A DNA stretch of 64,000 nt from the NCBI GenBank assembly GCA_032622095.1, contig CP136068.1:157799465-157863464 (forward strand), written 5' to 3'. The notes beneath the pieces are model-generated. The model was given only the letters and a program-made list of their open reading frames with translations. It had not been told where the DNA came from and did not search any database. How positions within the stretch are numbered: position 1 is the first letter of the stretch; each line of letters begins with the position of its first letter. This document shows positions 29,781 through 63,892 of the stretch, in pieces. The DNA is from Siphonodentalium dalli. Taxonomy: Eukaryota > Mollusca > Scaphopoda > Gadilida > Siphonodentaliidae. Made by a program: the position numbers and the translations under genes.

Positions 29781-32769
29781 CGGGTCCGTGTCGTTTCGGT
29801 CCAGAGTCGTTTCGGCTGGGACGTTTCGGCCGGGACGTTTCGGCTCAGTTTTAGGCCGAAACGACTCACTTATTGAGCCGAATAGTCTCAACTTTATCTG
29901 ACTTTTGATGATATTTTCTTTGAATATTTCGTGCATTTATGAGTTGTTATGAGGGAATTTGTTTATGAAATGTGACTTTTGATGACATTTTCGTTGCGTA
30001 ATTCAGTATGTATTTTTATGACTTATACCAATAAGATATTTGAATACAATGTGACTATAGCGGTGATTTTCTTTGCGTATTTGTGAATGAAATGTGACTT
30101 TGTTTGATGTTGTTTGATGTTATTCACACTTTAACTCGGTTGTTTGCATTACATCTGTCACTCAGACACATAGTGAGAACTGATTAGATGTTGTTTCTGA
30201 CAACCGGCCAACTTCTATCAGTGTTTGTTTAGGGTTCCTAGAGTATATTAAGCATGGGATACTGCTCTGTTCATATCATCTTGAAATCGTTCAACATGCC
30301 GTACAACCTTCGTCGACAAGCTACAACCAAGGAAAGCCCTCCCGACAACCCTTGCATCAAGTGTGGGAAAGACGTCTCGTCACACCAACAAGCCGTAGAC
30401 TGCGACTCGTGTGGTCATTGGCAGCACCGAAAATGCGATACCAACATCCCACAAAGTATATATAACTAATAATATTATTCGTTTCAAGTTATTTTCGTTT
30501 ATTCGTTTCTTCGCGTTTCACTCGTTTCTCCAAATCATTGCGGATTATTAGTATTTCTAACTTTCATTAAATTCGTTCATTTATAGGGATATACACCGAA
30601 GCCGTGAACAAGATATGCAGCATACACTTCAACTGCTTCAAATGCAACTCGTCTGGTGTCTGCTCTGCAGTATATATATATGACGATACATCAGCATCCG
30701 ATTTCATTCAGGATGAAATCCGACCTACGTCAGACGAACCGATGGACACTTCATCGCCACCAGACGACAACCACTTCACTTCACCACCAGCACCATCACC
30801 ACCACTGCCATCACCACCAGTAGCTTCATCACCATCACCACCACTACCATCACCAACAGTAGCTTCACCACCAGCACCACCATCAGCTTCGGTAGCACAC
30901 AACCCTTTGATGATCAGCTTCAACATTTCTGAATATATCGACGATTACTGATTTTATCTATATATTTTTTACAAATTATAATTTTTGGAATAATATATTT
31001 AAATCCAATTGTAAATATATTATACTACTATTATACTATCTATATTTTTATGCAGGTTAAAGATGCCGCCACAAGAGACATGTTTCGACCTGCGTCTGAC
31101 ATCGTGGAACAAGCCGTGAGAGACAGCGTGTCAACCTCAACAGCCACTTTCAAACCGAAGAACTCCAACATCAAAAGAGTCACCAACCGCCATCGCGCTA
31201 AGATACGACCACCTGTGCCTACCGACGTACATTTCGAAATTAACACCGACTTCTTGCATACCGACGATTTCCTAGTCACCGACCTCAACATGGAAGCCTA
31301 CCGACACATCGTTTTCGCCACCCCCTTTCAATTAGGCATTCTACAGCAGTCTCGAAGGTGGTTTATTGACGGAACGTTTAAGGTAATTACTAGCATCTTA
31401 AAAGCATACCGACAATCTTATCACTCCAGTCCCAGTACTGAAACAATACTGCACCGCCGACAAATACCTCTAATCATAAGCCGACGGCAAGGTGTCAACC
31501 AACCACGCATTAAGCTGTGAGATAAGATATGAGGTAATCCGTCAATTAGCACATCCTAAATATACCTCATACTATTTTGTGACTACAAAATTCATATCTC
31601 CATTATATATAAGAGATTATTCAAAGTAATATATAATCAATTTGTATATATTTTTTACAATATCATGATTCAAAGCTCCCTCTCTTTGTTCATGATGTGA
31701 GTTTTGACATAGTTCTTTCTATTATAGATTGTCAACAAGCCATTCAGCACCAGCTCCCAACTGATGTCTATCAACTGTTTCGCGAAGAGCGGCGATCAGA
31801 AAAAGCAATTCCCCATGGTCTTCGCCTTGATGTCGCGTCGAAGGAAATCAGATTACGTCGCAGTCCTCAACGCCATTCTTCACAGACTTGATGCGCCCCA
31901 GGTCGAGACATTTGTTATGGACTTTGAAATCGGCGCATGGCAGGCTTTCCGTGAAGTGTTTCCTGGAGTCGAGATTAAGGGGTGCGTCTTTCACTGGACA
32001 CAGGCAGTGTACAGAAAGATCACAACCATCGGCCTATCCACTGCTTACCGTGACAACAAACCCACGCAGCAATATCTTCAGCAGTTTTTAGCTCTGCCCT
32101 TTCTGCCGACAGCACACATCAAACATACCTTCGACGCCATATCACCGCAAGCCAACACCGATAAATTGCGGGAATTCGTCTCATACGTAGCTGACCAATG
32201 GATTAACAACGACAACTTTCCGATATCCGAGTGGTGCATCTTCGAACATTCTGTTCGCACGAACAATCACATTGAAGGTAAATATCTACTTTTGTTCCTC
32301 ACAGTTGTTTTTTTAAATTACAAAAATATATATTTATAATAAAATATATTAAAAAATATTACAATGTGTTCTATTATACTTTGCCATTTTCATAACCTCT
32401 TTTTCATATTATTCTTTGCCATTTTCATAACCTCTGTTTTATACTTGTAGCTTGGCACAGGCGAATGAACAGCAAGGCGGGTCAGCGGCTAAGTTGGATG
32501 GGATTTCGACGAAATTTGATACATGGGGGTACTTTTGCAATTGAGTGTTTTGGACGGGTCAAATCGTGACCCCGACCTGACCTTGACCTTCGAAATAATA
32601 AATTCAAGGTCAAATCGGGTAAAACCGGATGGATTTCGACGGGCACGTTTGTCGGGTACTTTTGTCCGGGCAGTGTTTTGGACTGGTCAAATCGTGACCC
32701 CACTTGACCTTGACCTTGAAAATGGACAATTCAAGGTCAAAGCCCGGACGAAGTCGGGTCACCTTCTAG
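29727..32769 (+). mobile_element. Helitron carrying a captured MULE-type transposase gene
   Basis: The 5' end TCTATTATATATTTTGAAAG plus (TG)n is the same as that of the upstream copy and abuts its CTAG directly. The 3' end repeats the CCCGGACGAAGTCGGG hairpin, cacctt and CTAG (32766-32769), followed by host T. So the pair sits between A (29003) and T (32770), the usual Helitron A|T target. No Rep/helicase frame is present, so it depends on an enzyme from elsewhere. Most of its 3 kb is an intron-containing gene fragment (30296 to about 32480). Confidence 0.8.
30296..32569 (+). CDS. captured MULE-type transposase gene, 3' truncated
   Basis: Probable exons are 30296-30455, 30587-30891, 31056-31382, 31728-32277 and 32451-32569, with GT-AG borders and matching phases; the second donor (TCG|gtagca) is the least sure. 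The start ATG (MPYNLRRQA) follows the pattern of a molluscan transposase-derived family; an earlier ATG lies at 30254. Exon 1 has a Cys/His finger (CIKCGK...CDSCGHWQHRKC). Exon 3 ends with the catalytic Asp in WFIDGTFK, exon 4 has VMDFEIGAWQAF and GCVFHWTQA, and the exon 4/5 joint gives the NNHIE..WH motif. The FLYWCH finger usually found between the finger and the transposase core is missing, replaced by a Pro/Ser-rich stretch. After about 32480 the frame runs into Helitron end sequence and stops at TGA 32567-32569. Confidence 0.65.
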
Positions 32770-40826: not shown

Positions 40827-42038
40827 TCATTTGCGTCTTGAGAGATTTGGGTTGGGACGTAATTTACCGGGGTTTCGTGGTGTCATGGAATTGTTACCCT
40901 GCCATTGTTGTATGAATGGGCTTCCAGTCTTCCCGTGGTCCTTTCCGCCAAACCCACTCCCTGCATTAACACTGTTGTTTTCTCTGCCAGCATTCGAAAC
41001 TTTTGACTGATATTTCCTTCCAATAATATGACGATCGGCATCTTGATTGGGGACCAAGGTTGCTGTTGCTTTGGCTGCTTCTTGGTCCTTCTTGAACGTG
41101 GACATAAACTCAGTCATTTCACTCATTTGTGACGTTAACTGCTGGATTTCGTCCTGGTTCTGTTTATTATGGTTAAGAATTTGCTCGTTCTGGTCAACAA
41201 TTGTAGTTGCAGTGGCAGAGAAAGCTTTCAAGTCAAGTTTCAAGTCATCTACTTTCTCTGTGACAACCGTCTCCAACCGTCTCTCACTTTCCGATTTTCT
41301 CTTGTCCATTTCAGATATTTTTTTTACTAGTTCACCCAAGTTATCCATCTTATCCACCACAGTCTGGAGTTTTGCTTCTATGGCGGCTTTCTCTCGAATA
41401 TCTTCTTGCTTGCTCTTTTCGTCTGGTATGGTAGAAGATTCCGGATTTGACGGTTGGTCGTCTTCGGACAGGTCAATGTTATTCCTTCGTTCAGATTTCA
41501 ATTCCTCCAGTTCACTTGTCTTTTGCTTTATAGTTATGTCTTTTTTGTCCATCTTCTGCTGCATTGCTTTCAGTTTATAAGACAGAAAATCGCGATCCTG
41601 GTCCAGTCTCTTCATCTTATTTAAATAGTTACTATTGTTATTTTTAGAACGTGTAATCTCATTCTTCAACAGAGTGATATCATACTGAAGACTGTCGATT
41701 TTTGTGCAAGCGTCATCGAACATGGATTTGAGTTCGTCATATTCGTATTGTACCTCGACTCCTTCAGAAAGAAGATCAAACGCCTCAGTCTGACCAGTTC
41801 GCCTCAACATTGTTATGAAGGTGATATAATCTTTGTCATCTTTCTTCGCAATCGTTTTCATTAACATTTGTATTTTCTCTTCGTTTGACAACTCAATCTT
41901 ATTGCACATTATATCGTCGACTTCATCCCGCCTGAGAACTTTATATTCCTTCATATGATTGACAGAAGTTAGTAGAGAAATGCATCTCTTCAGTTTGGTA
42001 ATGCTTGAATTTATTTTGTTGACATATTCGATTCTCAT
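40827..42038 (-). CDS. CARD-like and coiled-coil protein, 403 residues (single exon or last exon)
   Basis: The frame begins with a real ATG and ends TGA. Residues about 8-92 look like a CARD: LLTSVN..KVLRRDEVDDIM, then NEEKIQMLMKTI and YITFITMLRRTGQTEAFDLL match the helix 3-6 pattern of that fold. Residues about 95-205 and 215-325 are coiled-coil (many Lys, Glu, Asp, Ile/Leu at heptad spacing). The last 60 are Gly/Asn/Pro rich and basic. Just upstream (minus strand) is an acceptor-like atatttcag, so earlier exons may exist. CARD proteins act in apoptosis or innate-immune signalling through CARD-CARD contacts; here that role is inference. The antisense frame at 41047-41580 is its shadow. Confidence 0.65.
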   Translation of the reverse strand: MRIEYVNKINSSITKLKRCISLLTSVNHMKEYKVLRRDEVDDIMCNKIELSNEEKIQMLMKTIAKKDDKDYITFITMLRRTGQTEAFDLLSEGVEVQYEYDELKSMFDDACTKIDSLQYDITLLKNEITRSKNNNSNYLNKMKRLDQDRDFLSYKLKAMQQKMDKKDITIKQKTSELEELKSERRNNIDLSEDDQPSNPESSTIPDEKSKQEDIREKAAIEAKLQTVVDKMDNLGELVKKISEMDKRKSESERRLETVVTEKVDDLKLDLKAFSATATTIVDQNEQILNHNKQNQDEIQQLTSQMSEMTEFMSTFKKDQEAAKATATLVPNQDADRHIIGRKYQSKVSNAGRENNSVNAGSGFGGKDHGKTGSPFIQQWQGNNSMTPRNPGKLRPNPNLSRRK

Positions 42039-42058
42039 ATTGATATGTTGTTTGTAAT

Positions 42059-42132
42059 CTGAAATATCAACAATGTAAAGGTATTAGATATATTCTGAAA
42101 TGTCAACAATGTAAAGGTATTAGATATATTCA
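42059..42132. repeat. 37-bp direct duplication
   Basis: 'tgaaatatcaacaatgtaaa' followed by 'ggtattagatatattc' is present twice in a row, just upstream of the CARD exon on the minus strand, and duplicates its possible splice acceptor region. Confidence 0.8.
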
Positions 42133-46001: not shown

Positions 46002-47222
46002 GATCATGGCATGATTCTCTACTCTATCTAACGCCCGTAGAGATCAAATTCCACCAGTACAAAACCTGGGAACTTCCTGGTGTCACGGTTCTGACAGGGA
46101 ACTATATAACAACGAACAAACACGGCAGGGTATATGTTTCTTTGTTAATATTTTATACTCAATAATATACTAGTTGCATATTAGAGGGTGGTCCCATATT
46201 AGAGGGTGGTCCCATATTAGAGGGTGGTCCCATATTAGAGGGTGGTCCTATATTAGAGGGTGGTCCCATATTAGAGGGTGGTCCCATATTAGAGGGTGGT
46301 CCCATATTAGAGGGCGGTCCCATATTAGAGGGCGGTCCCATATTAGAGGGCGGTCCTATATTAGAGGGTGGTCCCATATTAGAGGGCGGTCCCATATTAG
46401 AGGGCGGTCCCATATTAGAGGGCGGTCCCATATTAGAGGGTGGTCCTATATTAGAGGGTGGTCCCATATTAGAGGGTGGTCCCATATTAGAGGGTGGTCC
46501 CATATTAGAGGGTGGTCCCATATTAGAGGGCGGTCCCATATTAGAGGGCGGTCCCATATTAGAGGGCGGTCCCATATTAGAGGGTGGTCCCATATTAGAG
46601 GGTGGTCCCATATTAGAGGGTGGTCCTATATTAGAGGGTGGTCCCATATTAGAGGGTGGTCCCATATTAGAGGGTGGTCCTATATTAGAGGGTGGTCCCA
46701 TATTAGAGGGTGGTCCCATATTAGAGGGTGGTCCCATATTAGAGGGTGGTCCCATATTAGAGGGTGGTCCCATATTAGAGGGTGGTCCCATATTAGAGGG
46801 TGGTCCCATATTAGAGGGTGGTCCCATATTAGAGGGTGGTCCCATATTAGAGGGTGGTCCCATATTAGAGGGTGGTCCCATATTAGAGGGTGGTCCCATA
46901 TTGATATTGCATGCTTTTCTGTGACTTGTGTGAGCCAGTATCGCAATTGATTTAATTTCCCAGGAGAAATTCCATAACTGTAGCGACGCAAAGCAAAATA
47001 GCTCACAAAGTCACTTAAATCGTGAAATTTTAAGTTGGGACATTCACCAACAGTGAAGTACATCATTAAGGAGCAGATAATAATTAAGAAATATATATTC
47101 CCCACGTTATTTTGTCGACTTTTCATGTTCCCTGTCAAAACTTTAAAAAGTTCCAAGGTTTTGTACTGGTGGAATATTATCTCTACCGGTGTTAGCAAGA
47201 GCAGGGATTCATGGCATGATCT
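46002..47222. repeat. 100-bp inverted repeats flanking an 18-bp satellite
   Basis: 46002-46103 and 47125-47222 are inverted copies sharing 'gatcatg-catga', 'ggtagagat' and 'tccaccagtacaaaacct'. The satellite at 46179-46900 lies between them. A weaker third copy lies at about 40597-40660. The whole could be one fold-back element whose interior has expanded. Confidence 0.6.
46179..46900. repeat. 18-bp satellite, about 40 units
   Basis: The unit is tattagagggtggtccca with two variable positions (ggtgg or ggcgg; cccat or cctat). Variants are clustered: one c-to-t unit, three or four plain units and three 'ggcgg' units recur about 12 units apart in the first half, while the last dozen units are all plain. 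Long frames on both strands are artefacts of the period. Confidence 0.95.
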
Positions 47223-53702: not shown

Positions 53703-53813
53703 CGTGCTAATCAGGCGACCTATGGTCGACTCGCATATATAAGAGAATGCTTTGGCACAGGGTAAAAAAAAATCCCGACTTACGACTGGATTTGATATGG
53801 CGGGTCACATATT
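53703..53813. mobile_element. right-end remnant of a TGACCCGCCATATC MITE
   Basis: Half a palindrome ('ggcgacctatggtcgactcg') is followed by 'cgacttacgactggatttga' and 'tatggcgggtcacatat', matching the right end of the copy at 33089. Confidence 0.6.
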
Positions 53814-54034
53814 GTGGGTTAATTATCACGATACTGTCAAGTTATTCTGAAAACGTTGATCTTAAATCGTTGCCCCCACGTACGAGATTAGGCCTACGTA
53901 TACCACACCCTTAATGTGATAGATGCGGAAATGAAAAGGAGGTCAGTTGTACTTTGAAGGTATATTTCTGGAGGGGTGCGGGCAGACAATATGGGATATT
54001 AACTGTTTCTTCAACTCGCACTATATATGTGAAG

Positions 54035-55262
54035 TTTTATCTCGTGCACACGATTTGTGTTATCTCGTGTGCACGACTTATTATGTCGTGTGCGCGACCA
54101 GAGACGTGGCGACAGGGGTGGGGGTATGGGGGGATGTCTCACCCCCCAAATTTGGTCAAAATTTTCAACAGTTGGAAATTTTAATACCTGCCAAAACATT
54201 AGTTGGAAATTTCACACCAACAATAGGTTGAAAATGTTCTTGTAATTTGATTTTCAAACAATTTATTGGGGGAATTAATTGTTTTTGGATCAATATTTGC
54301 ATATTTTCCTATATTTGGTCAAAATTTGTGACTGAAATGTTAATCCGTTGGAAATTTTCAACACTTGGGGGGGGGGGGGGGGTGGTGACAGGTTGGAAAT
54401 TTCCAACACTTGGAAAGCTTGTGTCCTGGTCCCTCCCCGTGGCCCAGTCAAAAACGGCTAGTTAATTTAAGAAAACAATATTGTCATACATTTGTTCAAC
54501 ATTGTCATTGGAATTGTTGTCAGTTGGAAATTTTCCAACCTAAGTCAGGTTTGAAATTTCCAACTCTAGGAAGACTTGAGGGCTAGTCTAGATGCTAGGA
54601 TTTTGCGACTTTTTTGTTGAGATTAAAAGAAATTTCACACACCGGGCCGAACGATGGTCGGCCCGGTGTGTCAATGCCCCTCCCCCGTGGCTAAAACAAA
54701 ACTGCTAGTTAGTTTAACAAAACAACATTTTACTACATTTGGTCAAACTTGTGGACTGAAATGGTCATCAGTTGGAGAATTCTCCAACCTGAGGGGGAGT
54801 ATGAGGTTTTGAAATTCCCAACACTAGGAAAGCTTCAGTTGATGCCAGTCTAGATGATAGGATTTGCGATTTTCTTGTATAATTTTCAAAATTTTCTCAC
54901 ACCGGGCCGAACAACCACACACCATGCATGGTGGGCCCGGTGTGTCCTGGTCTCTTGCCCGTAGCCTGTGTATTTGTGTTATAGGATATTAGGCCTGAGC
55001 ACTGAGGTGCAAGGGGTGGCAAATGAAATTATGCAAAACTTGTGTTTGGTCTGATTCTGATTCAAGGTGCAAAGGGGGGGGGGGGTCAGTTGGAATTTCA
55101 CAAGGAGGGACACCCCCAACGGAGACCCTCTAGCCACGTCCCTGAGCGCGACTTGTTATATAGCCCTATTGTACGGAAGCCCATTAAGGCTATGTGTAAT
55201 AATAAGTTGTGCTCACGAGATAACAAGTCATGCACACGACATAGTAAGCCATGATATTTGTG
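54035..55262. mobile_element. inverted-repeat element with 'TCGTGTGCACGA' ends and GTTGGAAATTTC interior
   Basis: 'tatctcgtgtgcacgactta' and 'gcgcgac..agagacgtggc' at the left are met inverted at 55115-55255. Between are many 'gttggaaatttccaac'-type palindromes and two GC-rich hairpins (54637-54670 and 54897-54946, cacaccgggccga facing cggcccggtgtg). No gene is supported. Confidence 0.5.
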
Positions 55263-55941
55263 GCACCACGCACCCTTTGGAAAGAAGCTTCGAGAAATGT
55301 AAATTGAAATAAATAAACTTGTTCTGATGTAATTAAGACATTTATGCCCAGATCATGGTGTGCATGGGAGCAAGGGCGAACAAATGTCTCAAACATTAAT
55401 GTGACTGTCAACGGCTAGAAAATATCTGTCATCAGTGCATCGAACTAATCGGTGAATTTTATTTGCATGTGCACCAACTCAGCACTTAAAGTATCCAAGT
55501 CCGGCATAATGACTGAATGCTTGTCATATAGCACAATTGAAGTAGGTCCACCGGGCTAACACAAGTGGTATGGAATAATGCTAGATAATGGGCTGGTTGA
55601 CCGACTAATTGGGAAATGTTAGAAATTATGGAATTGTGTGTATCATGTACAATGGTGGGTGGTGGGTCGCCGAAAATGCCAGATTGCCAGATGCAAAAAA
55701 AACAAAACAAAAACGGCATACCTTAAATTACCTTTTAAAGAAAAAACAGATGAGATCATCGCAGTACGCCAATATATTCACGATTCGTATCCAGAAAATT
55801 AGGCCCATTTGACCACCTTCAGATATCCTGGGGGATGGCAAATAAAAAAATCGCTCAATTTTGACCGATATCTCGTTTAATTAGAGCACTTTGTGGCACA
55901 AGCTATCGCTGCATGTATACCTATATATATAATCATATATG

Positions 55942-56347
55942 TGACCCGCCATATCAAATCCAGTCGTAAGTCGGGATTTTTTTTACCTGTGCCAATGCAT
56001 TCTCTTATATATGCGAGTCGACCATAGGTCGCCTCGCATATATAAGAGAATGCATTGGCCTAACAATTTTTTACAATTTTAATAATTTTTTCTTGTATTC
56101 TTTAACAATTTTATAATTTCACCCATACAGAGCCCCAGACAAACATGAGCAGACGACACTCTTCTTTATGCTTCTATATATGTGTGGGGCTCCCTGCAGG
56201 GTAATGGATGTTTTTTTATTTTATGTCCTAAAATATTTAAGAAACATTTATTTGAAAAAAAATGATAAAAAAACTGTTAGGCCAATGCATTCTCTTATAT
56301 AAGCGAGGCGACCTATGGTCGACTCGCATATATAAGAGAATGCATTG
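55942..56347. mobile_element. TGACCCGCCATATC MITE cut by the LTR element
   Basis: It starts tgacccgccatatcaaatcc, has a palindrome at 55991-56059 and a second from 56281 that breaks off at 'gagaatgcattg' where the LTR begins. The missing right end should lie beyond 64000. Confidence 0.75.
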
Positions 56348-56385
56348 TGTGAGGTAATGACACATAGATATAGTAGGTACAAGTC

Positions 56386-56391
56386 TTTATT
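56386..56391 (-). promoter_or_regulatory. LTR poly(A) signal
   Basis: AATAAA on the minus strand, 38 bases before the LTR's 3' edge, followed by a T/G-containing stretch. Confidence 0.6.
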
Positions 56392-56552
56392 ATGTTGTGA
56401 ATAAGATATGCAGTGTGTACAAATATAATGATCAATAGTCGCCGCGAATTGGTGTCCCCGAATGGGTGATGCCTGGTGTGAATGATGCCTGGATATGATC
56501 TAGGTATGAGATGAGTCTAGTGAAAGCATGATGTGATGGGATGTAGTTGTTT

Positions 56553-56560
56553 CTTATATA
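56553..56560 (-). promoter_or_regulatory. LTR TATA box
   Basis: TATATAAG on the minus strand, about 240 bases into the LTR and 160 bases before the AATAAA; a fit position for the U3 promoter. Confidence 0.6.
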
Positions 56561-56802
56561 CTATTTGGGATGCATATTAGATGAGGTGTTTGGCAATACA
56601 CATCGGGATTGGTTCTTCCGTTATGGTCATCTCCCTTGACCATATTTGGGAGCCATCTTCATTGTGTGTATATCTTCGCTGAGAGTAAGACGTGTGAGGT
56701 TTCGAGAACCGAACACGAATATCTGAGTTTGGGGTTTTATATATTGGGACATTCGTATAGTTTGAATCAAGTTGTGAGATTATAATGGGTAGTTATCTCA
56801 CA

Positions 56803-56820: not shown

Positions 56821-57318
56821 AAGATTTTTAGCGCAGCGGAAAATCTTATGTAACATCAAAATTATGGACCTAACTGGGGTAATTGTGATCATGTAATGTG
56901 GATGAGGCTGAAATGAAGTATAATAACATTGATTGTGGTGAAGTTATGATTAATACATGTGGAACAAAGTTGTCTTAAAATGATGATATGCGATATTAAG
57001 CTGTCTTAAAATGATGATACGCAATATTATGAGATTATGAAATAAATGGTGGGAAAAGCATATATGGGTTGGTATATAAAATGATCGTGCAAGCAGTCAT
57101 AATGCGTGCTATATTGATATGTAGGCTAAGGTATGATAATAGAATATAGAGATACAAGTATGAGAAGTAATGAATATAACAATACGGTAATAGTGCATGG
57201 TATGTTTTGTAAATGATGAACATTGGTGATGTATTATATAAATGCATGTTGTATTGTTAATAAAATCATGACGATATGTATACATTCGGTATTGTGGTAA
57301 TGAGAGACCAAATGTTTC

Positions 57319-57680
57319 TCATCTGCCGTCAATTGGACAGGGAATTGTTGAGAGCATGTGTCAGAGGTGAAATATTGTTTGGAGTGTGGTATATGAGACT
57401 TTGATTAATGCGTTTGTTGATAGTTGGCGAGATCCGTGACCAATGTTATTGAAGATAATCGGCGGTCAGTTGTCTAACTCTTGGGGTTGGCACGTGTCAT
57501 ATCTGCCGTTAATTGCTCAGGGAATTGTTGAGAGCATGGGTCAGAGGTGAAATATTGTTTGGAGTGTGGTATATGAGTCATTAATTAATGCATTTGTTGA
57601 TAGGTGGGGAGATCCGTGACCAATGTTATTGAAGATAATCGGCGGTCAGTTGTCTAACTCTTGGGGTTGGCACGTGTCAT
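57319..57680. repeat. 181-bp tandem duplication, two copies
   Basis: Both copies run from 'tctgccgt-aattg' through 'gataatcggcggtcagttgt' to 'ggggttggcacgtgtcat'. It lies between the envelope gene and the polypurine tract. Confidence 0.85.
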
Positions 57681-57792: not shown

Positions 57793-60065
57793 TCAATATA
57801 GATTAAGTGGTGGGTTATGGATGGACGCGTGAGTTTTCATTATTTTCATAGGTCGTAGTGTGGATGATTCTTCATCGACATCTCGCGGGTGTTTTTTGGG
57901 AAATGTCAAATCTTCTTGTGTGATTTGTATTTGAGGTTCCTTAGCTGGAGACAAATGAATATCTTTCGTGGCTTCATTGGGTATTGGTGGGGTTAGTCTG
58001 TGACGAAGTTGCATATCAGTTCCCTTTATCATTTGGTTAAGTTTATTTCGTCGCTTTGCGATTTTAATTCGTCGCGTGTTGTGATTGCGTTGAGTCTGGT
58101 ATTGGGAAATTTTCGTGATACACTGAATAATGTATTTGCGACTTGAGATGGCAATCAGTAAAATTTATACGAACGTAATGACCGCGGGAATGATAATTTG
58201 GTAATAATCCTGTTTTTTCTTTTGTTTGATGGGTTGCAGGGATGTGACTGTTTGCAGAAAATCATATAATGATAGTTGCTTTATGGGGGGTAACTTGTTT
58301 GGAATCGATACTTGAGGGGGCAAGTTATGAATTTGGGAAAATAATGGCTTCCATTGTGGCAATTTATGTAATTCAATAGTTGATTGTAATTGGGTTATTT
58401 GTCTCTTGATGGTGATGTTTGATGAGTTCAAAGTTGTGAATGCAATTAGTTTGATACTAGCTGATGTAGCTATGCACCTTGGTGGTAAAGTTATCGTTGC
58501 GATGGGGGGTAAAATTGTGATTCTATACGGTCGTTTTCTTAAGAGATTGTGATGACAGTTTACTGTAAATGTATGAGCTTTCGTGGTTGTTATAAGCCAT
58601 GTACATGCCGCCAGCTTAATAGCGGATGGTAAATTATACTGAGGGTAAATGGCTATAGGGCAATTTGTGGCGGTATTTTTTGTATCATTGGTGAATATGT
58701 TGAGTAGGCAGTTATGATTATGTGATGCGGCGATTGAAATTTTTTGAATTTTACAATATGGTAATTTGTTTAAAATACACGGGTGATTGTCACCAATGGT
58801 GGTATATTTGGATCGGTCGGGAGATAATAGCAGGTAATTATGAGTAATATCGATTCGGGCAACTGTATATTTATTGTTGTGTCTGAGTCTTGGGTCTCGA
58901 GGGTCTAATGGATAAAAAAATGGTATAGCGCGGAATATGTCAAACTGCATTCTGATATCGCGTAAGTAAATTGTTATGGTAATGATTAGTCTGCTGTCTG
59001 TGAGTATGGTTTGTGTCTTCAAATGTTGGTAATATTTTGCAATTCCCGATTCTATGGGGAATGGTAACTTCAAATGGGCTGGAAGTAATTTCGTTATACT
59101 GTCAAGTGCCTTTTTTGTATTGGGCTTATGATCTCCGGTGTAAATCGGTGGTTAATTAGAGAGGCAATTTGAACTTTAAGATGTCGCAAATATAATTTTG
59201 CTTGGATAACATCTTGTTGTATTTCGTGTAATATTACTAGAAACTTAGCGTTGATGATTGTGAATATTTCAATTGTATGCACATGTTTTTGGGTTCGATG
59301 TGTTTCTTTTCGAAGTGTGGCTTGAATATTGGATATTGTTGTTGATAATGTGTTGACTCGTTGGCGATTTTCGTTTGAAATGACGCGTGTTATATTCATG
59401 ATAGAATAAGCGGTTTGAGTATCGTGTTGGATTTTTTTTTGGTTTTGGTAGAGGGTTCGTATGTTATCTTCTACATGTGTAATATCTGACATCGAAGGGG
59501 TGCCAAATAAAAACTTAGCTATATCGCTTATTACGGGTAATATTGCTCGTTTGAGTCTTTTGGTATTATGGAGTTGATAATAATTATGATATTCATATTG
59601 GATTTGTTTTGTTTCCGTGAGAGCCGCTGCTAATTCAGTTTGTAAATCTGTCAAAATGTTGATGAGATTAAAGTTAATGTTATTTGTCTCGTTCCTGAAT
59701 GGAGGTTTGTTATGGTGATATGTGCTTTGATGAAACGTGGCACAAATGCTATTGAGTTTATTTTGGGCCATCCTTATGTCGGTAGCGAGTCTTGCTATGT
59801 AGGTATAATATGGTGTGAGTTCGATGAGAAAACTGAGATCCCAATTTTCATTTGAGACAGCAATTTGCCGGTGATGCAAAAATAACATGTTCTGTCGAGT
59901 TAACATAGCGTCACTAGTTTGAAAGCCGATGATAAGTATGAAGAGGGTCGCTTTAACGAAGTTTTCTGTAGGCTTCATATCGCTTGCACCCCTATAAGTA
60001 AAAATATAGGTGTGTATTAGCGGGTTAGCCGGTATCTGATTATAAAGATAGATTCTCGTGGGCAT
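57793..60065 (-). pseudogene. env: F-type envelope glycoprotein gene of an LTR retroelement, broken
   Basis: The minus-strand frame starts at 60065 (or the second ATG at 59978, just before a hydrophobic signal-like segment). A splice acceptor (ttttacttatag) lies at 59992. At residues 170-173 there is a furin-like R-L-K-R site, followed by a fusion-peptide-like segment ending KFLFG, the arrangement of errantivirus Env and baculovirus F proteins, and then helical repeats. The frame is lost at a T6 run (59111-59116), resumes in another frame to an in-frame TAA at 58165-58167, which falls in the hydrophobic membrane-anchor segment, and continues open to 57793. Such proteins mediate membrane fusion for cell-to-cell spread. 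As read, no complete protein is made; one-base error in the T run cannot be excluded. The family match is from motifs, not a search. Confidence 0.65.
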
Positions 60066-60254
60066 GGCTTATATGGGTTAACTGGTTTTATTAATCAATG
60101 AGATTTTTCGGCCGGTGTAAGTTTACTGTTTACTGTGTATCTGGGTACCCCCAGAAATCGACGAAAAATGACGTCACGCGATGCCAGTGTGGATACTAAT
60201 TAGCAGCGCTGCGTGTATTAGGCGTGTCGATAAAGGTAATTAGTGGTATAGCGG

Positions 60255-60262
60255 TATAAAAG
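60255..60262 (+). promoter_or_regulatory. TATA box of small gene A
   Basis: TATAAAAG, 62 bases before the ATG of gene A and pointing away from env. Confidence 0.55.
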
Positions 60263-60316
60263 CATTTGTATGATGGCTGGAAAATATTACGGGCCTGTCT
60301 TTCAATCTTTGCAGTT

Positions 60317-60622
60317 ATGAGTCAACTTTTAAGTGAGTTAGAGTGTAAGTTAAGCCATGCGAGGGCGTCTGGTCTAGGTTATTTTGGGGTGATCGTTGAT
60401 TCGATATATCTGACGTACGTGAATGATCAGATAGTCGATCAATTTGAGCGGGGAAATGAGCACGCCCGGACTGGGGTATCATCCAAGAGCGATCGATATC
60501 TGTGTACGTTGTGGCTGGAGGAAAATGAGAGGTGTTACCTCATATTAAATCTGAGGAAGCAGATTAGGGAAGAGAGGAGAAGGTTGATAGATCTGTGGTT
60601 GGAAGAACAGACTGACTGGTAA
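60317..60622 (+). CDS. small protein A (101 residues), paralog of the protein at 62779-63054
   Basis: The start is ATG at 60317 (MSQLLSELECKLSH), chosen because its paralog starts at the same place (MSDYLRFLE) and a TATA box lies 62 bases upstream; an in-frame upstream ATG at 60269 would add 16 residues. The C-terminal part ERCYLILNLRKQIREERRRL then IDLW aligns with ERCHKVINLRLEIIDERQRI then VDIW of the second protein, and the N-terminal halves share M-S-x-x-L-x-x-LE and a VD-x-I pattern. It is predicted mainly helical, with no signal peptide or membrane segment. AATAAA follows at 60899. It runs opposite to env. I do not recognise the family. Confidence 0.6.
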   Translation: MSQLLSELECKLSHARASGLGYFGVIVDSIYLTYVNDQIVDQFERGNEHARTGVSSKSDRYLCTLWLEENERCYLILNLRKQIREERRRLIDLWLEEQTDW

Positions 60623-60898
60623 GACGGAGTTGAGTTGGGCCGGCTGATGGGGGAGATTTGAGGAGGTTTGGCAGGAGGAGTGAAGGAGAAAGATGGGCCC
60701 AATCTTTGATAGCTGTTTGTGCCTATATAATTTAACGTGGGTTACATCGTGCTAATGAAGATTGGTTTCATTGAAAACATCACATGGACATCTGAATGTG
60801 AATGACGAGTAGTATTGCTGTATTATTTAAAAAATGTATGTGTCATATGGTGTAGGTATACCAACAGTCATGTCAATATGGATATCAAAAGGCATATT

Positions 60899-60904
60899 AA
60901 TAAA
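60899..60904 (+). terminator. poly(A) signal after gene A
   Basis: AATAAA, 277 bases after the stop codon of gene A on the same strand. Confidence 0.35.
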
Positions 60905-61088
60905 TGCGTATTGTGTACTGGTATATATAGGTTCTTATTGCTATATTTGACATGATTATTGGCGGAAATATTTGTTGATTGTATAGTATTAGGGGAGTGC
61001 AATTGACGCATGGAATAGTAGTTCTATCTATATTGTAATGATAATATTTGATCGCGCATTGTCACGCGGCTCTGGTTATCTTGGCGGT

Positions 61089-61114
61089 GGGGGGGGGGGG
61101 GGGGGGGGGGGGGG
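61089..61114. repeat. run of 26 G
   Basis: Uninterrupted G tract; its length in the assembly may be inexact. Shorter G runs occur at 62105, 63496 and 63892. Confidence 0.8.
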
Positions 61115-62726
61115 TATGTATACAATATCGTCGTGTTGGGAGATATATTGCATGGTGATCTATATCGGTAGCATTGTATATGAATGGTAATTGTATGTTC
61201 CTATTTAATTGTATTGATATATTTGAACAAAATGTGTTCCTGACGTGATATTTTGTTCCTGGACAAATTATATCGGAAATTTGTATTCCGTTGTCCTATT
61301 GGAACAACTCGATGATTGTACGTGTGTGGGATTTGGATGAAGAAACTTGATGCTTCTATATACGTGGGTTCTATACATCGTTTCGCCTTAATGAATAGTA
61401 ATGGTAGTATGAACTGATGTTGGACATGTGTTAATTTGAATTATAAGATCCGATATAGGGCGTATATGAATATGTTATTAATGACAGTTAATCATTGGCA
61501 AGTATATTTGACAATAATATATGGGGTAGGGAAGAATATGAAAAATATTGCTTAAGGACTGACAATATTTGTGTCGTTTGGGATAAAGTGCACATGGTGA
61601 GCCTATTTTGGCACTGTATATGCACATTTTGGTAAGCGGCGGTATTGGGTGAAGTTTGTACGTGAATTTGGTGTTCACGTGTATTGGATTTTTGTTTTAT
61701 GCACGATATAGATGCATGTGGGGTCCATGTATTGCGCGTTACATGTATGTAAGAGTGAGCTTCAGTTAGCTCTGTACATGTATCTGGGATTTTTATGCAC
61801 GATTGTGCACTGTGTGTTCTATACATGTTAAGTTAACTGGGCCTTGATTGGCCGTTAACATGTACGTTGTATTTGGAGATTTTCTTGTGGAAGGGCGTTC
61901 GGGTATCATGGGAATTGGATGGGGAATGGTATATGAGGATTTGATGGGTAACTGTGTACACACGTTTGTCGTGTGTTATAGGTTACATGTTAAGTTAATT
62001 AGGCCTTGATTGGCCGTTAACATGTACGTTATTGGGAATTTCTTGTGGAAGGGGGTTTGGGTGTTATGGAAATTGGATGGGGAATTGTATCTCACTAGAT
62101 ACGTGGGGGGGGGGGGTAAGCGTACTAAATCGTTAAGGAAGGTTCACCTATCGGTGTTCATGTCATAATAATTGGTGTGTGTGTGTCACTTAAGTTTGAT
62201 ATTATGATACACTTGTGAGGTTGTGAACCTTGGTTAATTATTTCATCTAAATAGGATTATTTGAGTTTGATGAATAATTATGGATAGTTTTGGTTATGTT
62301 ACGAGGCAGATAAATTGGCTGGGTAATGTTTGTTTATGTTATTAGTTTATGTTGAAATATTCCTATTTATTGATATGATACTTGTGTAACATATTTTTAT
62401 TGTATTTATTTATTTTATTTTTTTGAGGGAAGCAAGTTTAGCCCTGTGTGCATGGTGCACCGATGCACACTGGACTTGCCAGCATTGAGTTATATCTGAT
62501 TATTAGATGATGTTTAGTGTGTTTATTTATCATTGGATATTATGTTTAGATGTATCGAAGAGATATCGCTTGATAGCTGGTTAGATGTTAGCGGGAACAG
62601 GGGTTTGTAATATATATTTGAGATAGATAGTGCCTAGCACGTCCCTCGGGAATCTTCGAGAGTGCTTGCTTGGTTTGGCACAGCGTCCCGATTCGATACG
62701 GACGCTATCTGCCAATATGAGATAAG
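61115..62726. other. spacer between the two small genes
   Basis: No gene is supported on either strand. A minus-strand frame of 112 residues (61488-61826) shows no retroviral motif. It holds a duplicated hairpin block (61823-62025) and short G runs. Confidence 0.4.
61823..62100. repeat. duplicated hairpin block, unit about 160 bp
   Basis: acatgttaagttaa...ggcc and ggccgttaacatgt form a 41-bp hairpin at 61823-61863, repeated at 61985-62025, each followed by a similar 'ttcttgtggaaggg' and 'aattggatggggaat' segment. Confidence 0.75.
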
Positions 62727-62734
62727 TATATAAG
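62727..62734 (+). promoter_or_regulatory. TATA box of small gene B
   Basis: TATATAAG, 52 bases before the ATG of gene B; spacing close to that of gene A. Confidence 0.55.
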
Positions 62735-62778
62735 GTGTGGGAATATCGACAAGGGTTATTTCTGACATAATTTTCATT

Positions 62779-63054
62779 ATGTCTGATTACCTGCGATTTT
62801 TGGAGGCTGAGGTTGCTGTGTTAGAAACGAGCCAATATGAGGTAACAATGCAATATGTGGATCACATATTGGCATTTTATGATGTTATAGTTGCTGTGTG
62901 CCTGGCTGGAGGGACCAGTATAGATTGGGCACGGTATTTGAGTACCTTGTCTGAATTAGAACGATGTCACAAGGTGATAAATCTCCGGCTGGAGATTATA
63001 GATGAGAGGCAGAGGATAGTAGACATATGGAGCCAACATCGGAGAGTGCTATAA
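62779..63054 (+). CDS. small protein B (91 residues), paralog of the protein at 60317-60622
   Basis: ATG at 62779 opens MSDYLRFLEAEVAVLE. The C-terminal segment ERCHKVINLRLEIIDERQRI followed by VDIW matches protein A at about 13 of 27 positions, with E-R-C, N-L-R, E-R-x-R and D-x-W kept. The middle is about ten residues shorter than in A. TATATAAG lies 52 bases before the start. The shared layout (promoter, start, conserved C-terminal half) shows a gene duplication with both copies keeping an open frame. Function unknown. Confidence 0.6.
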   Translation: MSDYLRFLEAEVAVLETSQYEVTMQYVDHILAFYDVIVAVCLAGGTSIDWARYLSTLSELERCHKVINLRLEIIDERQRIVDIWSQHRRVL

Positions 63055-63560: not shown

Positions 63561-63892
63561 TGCCGAGGTTAATATTCCACACGCCATATAACAAAAGGCG
63601 TTTAGTGGCAGTTTTAGGGTGTCATGACCTAAAATAAGGTCGGACGAATGTCCGTAAAATGAGGTAGGGATTGGGGAAGTGTTGTTGATGGGAGAAATGC
63701 CGTGGTTTATGTACCAATCGCTCTATAATGAAGAGCGTTTTGTGGCGGTATTTATGGTTTCATGGCCTCAAATAAGGTCGGACAAATGTCCGTTACAATG
63801 AGATCGGGATTGGGGAAGTGTTGTTGATGGGAGAAATGCCGTGGTTTATGTACCAATCGTTCTATAATGAAGAGCGTTTTGTGGCGGTATTG
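63560..63892. repeat. tandem repeat of about 140 bp, two to three copies
   Basis: 'tctataatgaagagcgtttt' recurs at about 63722 and 63862, with 'aaataaggtcggac-aatgtc' and 'ggggaagtgttgttgatggg' in each unit. Each unit contains a small 'cggac..gtccg' hairpin. Confidence 0.7.

Follow-up and report, generated by a model that had tools for sequence, protein, structure and literature searches.

Two paralogous opposite-strand genes between pol and an env-like gene in a Ty3/gypsy-type element of Siphonodentalium dalli

Opposite-strand and accessory genes of LTR elements

Frames on the opposite strand of retroelements are mostly regarded as products of chance, or are disputed. As a class, opposite-strand ORFs are already known in LTR elements: plant Ty3/gypsy elements of the Tat lineage carry an antisense ORF (aORF) 3' of pol, and both HTLV-1 HBZ (a bZIP protein whose expression is driven by the 3' LTR) and HIV ASP are encoded by opposite-strand protein genes in the retroviral env region. 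In primate lentiviruses, Vpr and Vpx are paralogous helical accessory proteins of approximately 100 aa encoded between pol and env, and the LTR elements of bdelloid rotifers contain additional, enzyme-like ORFs.

Here, we analysed a window of 64,000 nucleotides from Siphonodentalium dalli (C8:157799465-157863464), together with the genome to which it belongs (2.23 Gb, nine contigs). Two small genes, referred to as A and B, lie between pol and an env-like gene of a Ty3/gypsy-type element, on the strand opposite to gag, pol and env. The element resembles errantiviruses and other env-bearing Metaviridae in its LTRs, target duplication, gag, protease, RT-RNase H-integrase order and 3' env-like gene, but differs from them in carrying, between pol and env, two paralogues on the opposite strand that have TATA boxes; we know of no such opposite-strand pair in errantiviruses. 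The plant Tat aORF likewise lies 3' of pol, on the opposite strand of a Ty3/gypsy element, whereas the locus described here has an animal host, an env-like gene, a duplicated pair and conserved TATA boxes, and is set apart from the Tat elements by these descriptions. Similarly to HBZ and ASP, A and B are opposite-strand protein genes of the env region, but they are located between pol and env, possess internal TATA boxes and form a pair. With Vpr and Vpx they share the size of about 100 aa, the helical character, the paralogy and the pol-env position; the lentiviral genes, however, are spliced and lie on the sense strand, the third predicted helix of A (43 residues) is, to our knowledge, longer than that of Vpr, and our searches with A and B gave neither a sequence match nor a listed fold match to Vpr or Vpx, Vpr being absent from the matches listed in the fold searches. 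Finally, bdelloid LTR elements also carry genes beside gag, pol and env in an animal host, yet A and B match no enzyme family. What seems to be new is a pair of old paralogues that is located between pol and env and has conserved TATA boxes. Since selection, duplication, gene order and promoter motifs are concordant in two lineages, the pair offers a clear case of real opposite-strand genes. Moreover, the role of A and B is testable (help versus self-restraint, LTR-independent expression), and the differing number of B genes and the apparently exchanged versions of the A promoter provide natural comparisons.

The element and its gene pair

The element that carries A and B is of Ty3/gypsy type, approximately 15.8 kb long, oriented on the minus strand and bounded by LTRs (Table 1). 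Its order is LTR, gag, pol, some 4.5 kb with B and A on the opposite strand, the env-like gene and LTR. The two LTRs are 100% identical over 455 bp, which suggests that the window copy was inserted recently, and ATTG is present at both outer flanks of the element as a 4-bp target duplication. Pfam domains in the pol frame follow the order RT, RNase H, integrase, and Ty3 Gag-Pol is the best solved relative (E 1.2e-74). LTRs with a short target duplication and a pol of this order closest to Ty3, both features of Ty3/gypsy elements (Metaviridae), are present, and the LTR retroelement that had been proposed around the two frames is borne out by the identical LTRs, the target duplication and gag/pol. 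Upstream of gag, and overlapping it slightly, there is a 179-codon frame on the gag strand (L031:6499-7035, minus) with no match in Pfam or NCBIfam. The element lies at the edge of fold-back-type inverted repeats (window 53713-56357, arms of 48-90 bp), and a 61-bp piece left of it is found again, inverted, immediately to its right.

Table 1. Coordinates of the element's features, in window positions unless another sequence is named (A' and B', counterparts of A and B in a related element).
Feature	Position	Strand	Remarks
3' LTR	56348..56802	-	455 bp
Two 180-bp tandem units	57314..57673	-	env to 3' LTR
env-like gene	57796..60065	-	broken over several frames in window copy
Spacer env to A	60066..60316		A promoter stretch; divergent, apparently exchanged versions
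TATA box of A	60255..60261	+	62 nt before ATG
Gene A	60317..60622	+	open from ATG to stop; 101 aa; three-helix bundle predicted
Spacer A to B	60623..62778		no frame of 120 codons; size differs among copies
AATAAA, possible poly(A) signal of A	60899..60904	+	276 nt after A stop
TATA box of B	62727..62734	+	52 nt before ATG
Gene B	62779..63054	+	91 aa, A paralogue, predicted layout of three helices as in A
Two 139-bp tandem units	63598..63891		B to pol 3' end
pol	L031:612-4520	-	1303-aa frame, right of window
Protease frame	L031:4524-5375	-	right of window
gag	L031:5357-6532	-	right of window
5' LTR	L031:7667-8121 (window-equivalent 71667-72121)		455 bp, right of window
A'	L053:5222-5530	-	103 aa, adjoins env; tblastn 36% over 97 aa, E 6.5e-13
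B'	L053:3727-3993	-	89 aa, adjoins pol; found by reading frames

Other copies of the env-like gene contain open, stop-free frames of 759-762 codons, and the window env is 93-100% identical to its relatives in most rows of the genome search. Because no Pfam family matched the env pieces of the window or the env frame of L053, the name is putative and derives from position together with features noticed by eye, namely a cleavage-like RLKR followed by a hydrophobic stretch, which we take to be a cleavage motif and a fusion-peptide-like segment.

The original prediction comprised two plus-strand frames of 101 and 91 residues, similar to each other, of no recognised family and antisense to env. Both frames are present. 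A and env stand head to head, approximately 250 nt apart and without overlap; the opposite strand was thus confirmed, and "divergent from env" describes the position more exactly than "antisense". BLASTP aligned A with B at 48% identity over 42 aa (E 1e-10, single comparison). A profile of the A family scored 29.2 bits on B, compared with 15.0 for the best of 4000 shuffles, and a profile of the B family scored 23.3-33.6 bits on eight longer A/A' rows, compared with at best 10.4 among 9000 shuffles. The expected similarity is therefore recovered reciprocally, and by these comparisons A and B are paralogues. The model of A is a three-helix bundle (pLDDT 90.2); that of B contains three helices in a layout like A (pLDDT 91.6), of which helix 2 is hydrophobic, and neither protein shows a signal peptide or a membrane segment by eye. 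In keeping with the prediction, family searches with A and B yielded no significant match, including none to an enzyme or DNA-binding family, and neither did fold searches with the two models.

Constraint, copies and a second lineage

Among 30 copies of A including the window (21 distinct, one with a stop), pN/pS was 0.17 in the A frame; the five other frames gave 0.44 to 2.36, and every one of them contained stops in 21 of 21 sequences. The window A compared with four copies of one subfamily gave a dN/dS of 0.08-0.10, and the window B compared with the subfamily copy L028 gave 0.05 (22 synonymous and 5 non-synonymous changes), the other frames of this latter pair giving 0.25 to 2.75, with one undefined for lack of synonymous changes. 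Between the second-lineage elements L053 and L055, dN/dS was 0.13 for A' (the L055 copy being without the usual ATG) and 0.16 for B' over 74 codons. Synonymous sites were saturated between B and both B-like genes of L060 and between A and L058, with a dN of 0.16-0.21, and the set of 20 close B copies (12 distinct; L045 left out for an indel) was uninformative, with a ratio of 1.19 in frame and 0.28 in frame +1. Two outcomes that had been named as counting against the genes, a dN/dS near 1 and a shared non-coding repeat, were thus absent: between subfamilies the ratio was 0.05-0.16 for A, B, A' and B', and constraint tracked the annotated frame in A and, compared with L028, in B. This substitution pattern marks A and B as protein-coding genes under purifying selection, and the low dN/dS argues that the proteins matter and not the transcript alone.

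The third such outcome, that no other copy of the element would carry the frames, did not occur either. Searches of the genome returned at least 115 matches to A and at least 151 to B, both numbers being lower bounds since at most 150 candidates were scored. No internal stop was found in 67 of the first 71 A matches (near-full-length, 87-100% identity) or in 123 of 131 B rows, the set that remained once short fragments and hits to A genes had been removed. A B row lay 1.5-2.5 kb downstream on the same strand at 68 of the 71 A loci; an env row lay upstream and divergent at 67 (gap 244-552 nt, median 264), and none of the 71 had an env row in A orientation within 3 kb. In 8-kb stretches of the 20 copies that match A best apart from the window itself (L033-L052), the order pol end, B, A, env was always kept; in one of these copies (L045) the B match ends at residue 82-83. 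No partner among the 71 A rows was seen for 63 of the 131 B rows, some of them 97% identical to B, and for 57 of 124 env rows; some of these adjoin partial A matches, and others could be explained by A copies that were not scored or by deletion derivatives. At L027, LTR-like sequence abuts the start of the A region, with env missing between them and the A frame retained; by this structure it is a rearranged or deleted copy.

A and B are surrounded by duplications and by spacers of variable length that contain G runs, as might be seen if they belonged to a non-coding repeat or to an unrelated mobile element nested in the provirus; given that both genes show frame-specific constraint and are linked to env and pol at almost every A locus and in both lineages, we find this hardly credible. 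Membership in a different element, as had also been suggested, is likewise disfavoured for A and B, since 67 of the 71 A loci have env close upstream and divergent, and the second lineage shows this arrangement again. We regard it as close to certain that they are real, conserved genes of the element.

The second lineage is represented by L053 (C1:2418678-2428677), a related element whose pol is 41.6% identical to that of the window lineage over the C-terminal 700 residues and whose env parts are 40.5-41.0% identical. At the DNA level, only short chance matches can be aligned between this stretch and the window lineage; A' and B' have the same order, strand and position on their element as A and B. 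B' was not picked up by tblastn. A two-row B profile scored 17.1 bits on B', compared with 10.8 for the best of 4000 shuffles, and 9.8 bits, below that shuffle, on A'; the A-family profile scored 13.7 bits on B' and 5.4 bits on the partial B' of L055, both under its best shuffle of 15.0. In a protein tree of 11 rows, a single branch parts A and A' from B and B' (92/92; 94% of 200 bootstrap trees), its support lying under the starred level of the program, which also issued a long-branch warning. Since the tree groups A with A' and B with B', and the order on the element matches, the duplication probably predates the split of the two lineages, which stand at about 42% pol identity. A'-like identity and stop-free open frames were found in three further rows (C1:4583416, C8:16041230, C5:6645901), and L054-L057 are relatives of the L053 element decayed to varying degrees; the A' of L055, which lacks an in-frame ATG where one is usually found, hence represents a decayed copy. 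In L060 (C3:55774330-55775180) two open B-like genes stand in tandem with starts 503 bp apart, and B-like pairs of similar spacing occur at four further places on C3; judging from these tandems, B has been duplicated again within the window lineage.

Own TATA boxes and an opposite orientation are also what a gene captured together with its promoter might look like, and A and B could then be former host genes that kept a host role, e.g., as differentiation or signalling adaptors. However, the A and B rows whose genomic context was viewed (few unpaired B rows among them) sit in the element or its relatives, the one protein-database query, made with A, found nothing, and the pair is probably older than the lineage split; we consider such an origin improbable.

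Promoter motifs and possible roles

The TATA box described 52-62 bases before each ATG is found there in the window and recurs across copies: 26 of 30 A loci have it at 62-63 nt, and 19 of 20 B loci have it at 52-55 nt. In the second lineage, TATA boxes lie 51 nt before the ATG of A' and 64 nt before that of B'. The first B-like gene of L060 has its box at 52 nt, and the second has none in the 110 nt before its ATG. An AATAAA follows the A' stop after 196 nt, as one follows that of A; neither AATAAA nor ATTAAA occurs within 600 nt after the stop of B or B'. TATA boxes on the other strand suggest LTR-independent expression, and we consider it likely that A and B are transcribed from internal promoters of their own. 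The motifs do not support own promoters for every gene alike, given that B and B' are without AATAAA/ATTAAA and the second L060 gene is without a TATA box.

Divergence along the region is uneven. Between the window and L028 it amounts to 0.6-1.5% in env bins, 7.2 and 16.0% in the env-A spacer, 11.5% at the 5' end of A falling to 3.9% at its 3' end, 3.9 and 1.3% in the DNA after A, 2.1-5.8% in the DNA before B and 6.7-14.1% in B. Divergence across 60191-60316, within the promoter stretch of A, is 9.5% in 7 of 20 near copies (L036, L041, L048-L052), whereas the 5' part of A differs by only 1.0% and no env bin by more than 0.8%. Element copies that are otherwise near-identical thus carry this stretch in two or more diverged versions, which suggests that promoter versions of A have been exchanged between copies. 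Parts of the region therefore have different histories, arising most simply by template switching between copies. Since the differences in A and B are mostly synonymous and the flanking sequence is more similar, dS should not be taken as a measure of age.

Small helical proteins without an enzyme signature often act by binding another protein, and hence we tentatively favour A and B as accessory genes of a Ty3/gypsy-type element with an env-like gene, acting in trans as adaptors and expressed from their own promoters. The accessory-factor reading of the original prediction gained support, none of the three contrary outcomes mentioned above having occurred. In our proposal, the internal promoter of each gene would drive its transcription without the LTR, and the products would be small intracellular helical proteins, made even while the LTR is silent, which may serve as protein-protein adaptors and so either neutralise a host restraint on the element or redirect it. 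By analogy with the paralogous Vpr and Vpx of primate lentiviruses, an adaptor or antagonist role is possible; as the fold searches gave no significant match, it draws its support from size, helical fold and position. Possibly, the two lineages belong to an "ambisense" group of animal retroelements with an old, expandable opposite-strand gene family that has no known relatives, carries its own promoters and is active during LTR silencing. If so, a provirus could make regulatory or counter-defence proteins despite a silenced LTR.

Alternatively, A and B might regulate transcription of the provirus, as HTLV HBZ and foamy virus Tas do, either through the proteins or through opposite-strand transcription itself. 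The opposite strand, the own TATA boxes, the head-to-head position with env and the exchanged promoter versions would suit such regulators; however, A, B and A' are predicted to be acidic (pI 5.0-5.4; B' 9.35), neither A nor B has a family match to a bZIP or other DNA-binding domain, and regulation by the transcript alone is at odds with the low dN/dS, so that we think this role unlikely. We are similarly sceptical of self-limitation, in which the proteins would act against particles of the element itself or prevent re-entry, holding its copy number at a tolerable level, following the models of Ty1 self-restriction and superinfection exclusion. Expression separate from the LTR, retention in nearly all copies and the position of A next to env would fit it, but the Ty1 self-restriction factor is a piece of Gag, and the A/B profile showed no similarity above shuffles to the gag, protease, pol and env pieces of the element itself. 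The adaptor reading remains the one that we prefer.

Elsewhere in the window, a 418-codon frame (40830-42083, minus) has a weak CARD match (E 0.00031; 21.1 bits, below the curated cut-off of 23.9), its CARD-like part being followed by a long, charged, helical-looking sequence. A MULE transposase piece lies at 31728-32336 on the plus strand (Pfam PF10551, E 2e-10), and an 18-bp repeat at 46177-46902 is present in about 40 copies, with several frames open on both strands.
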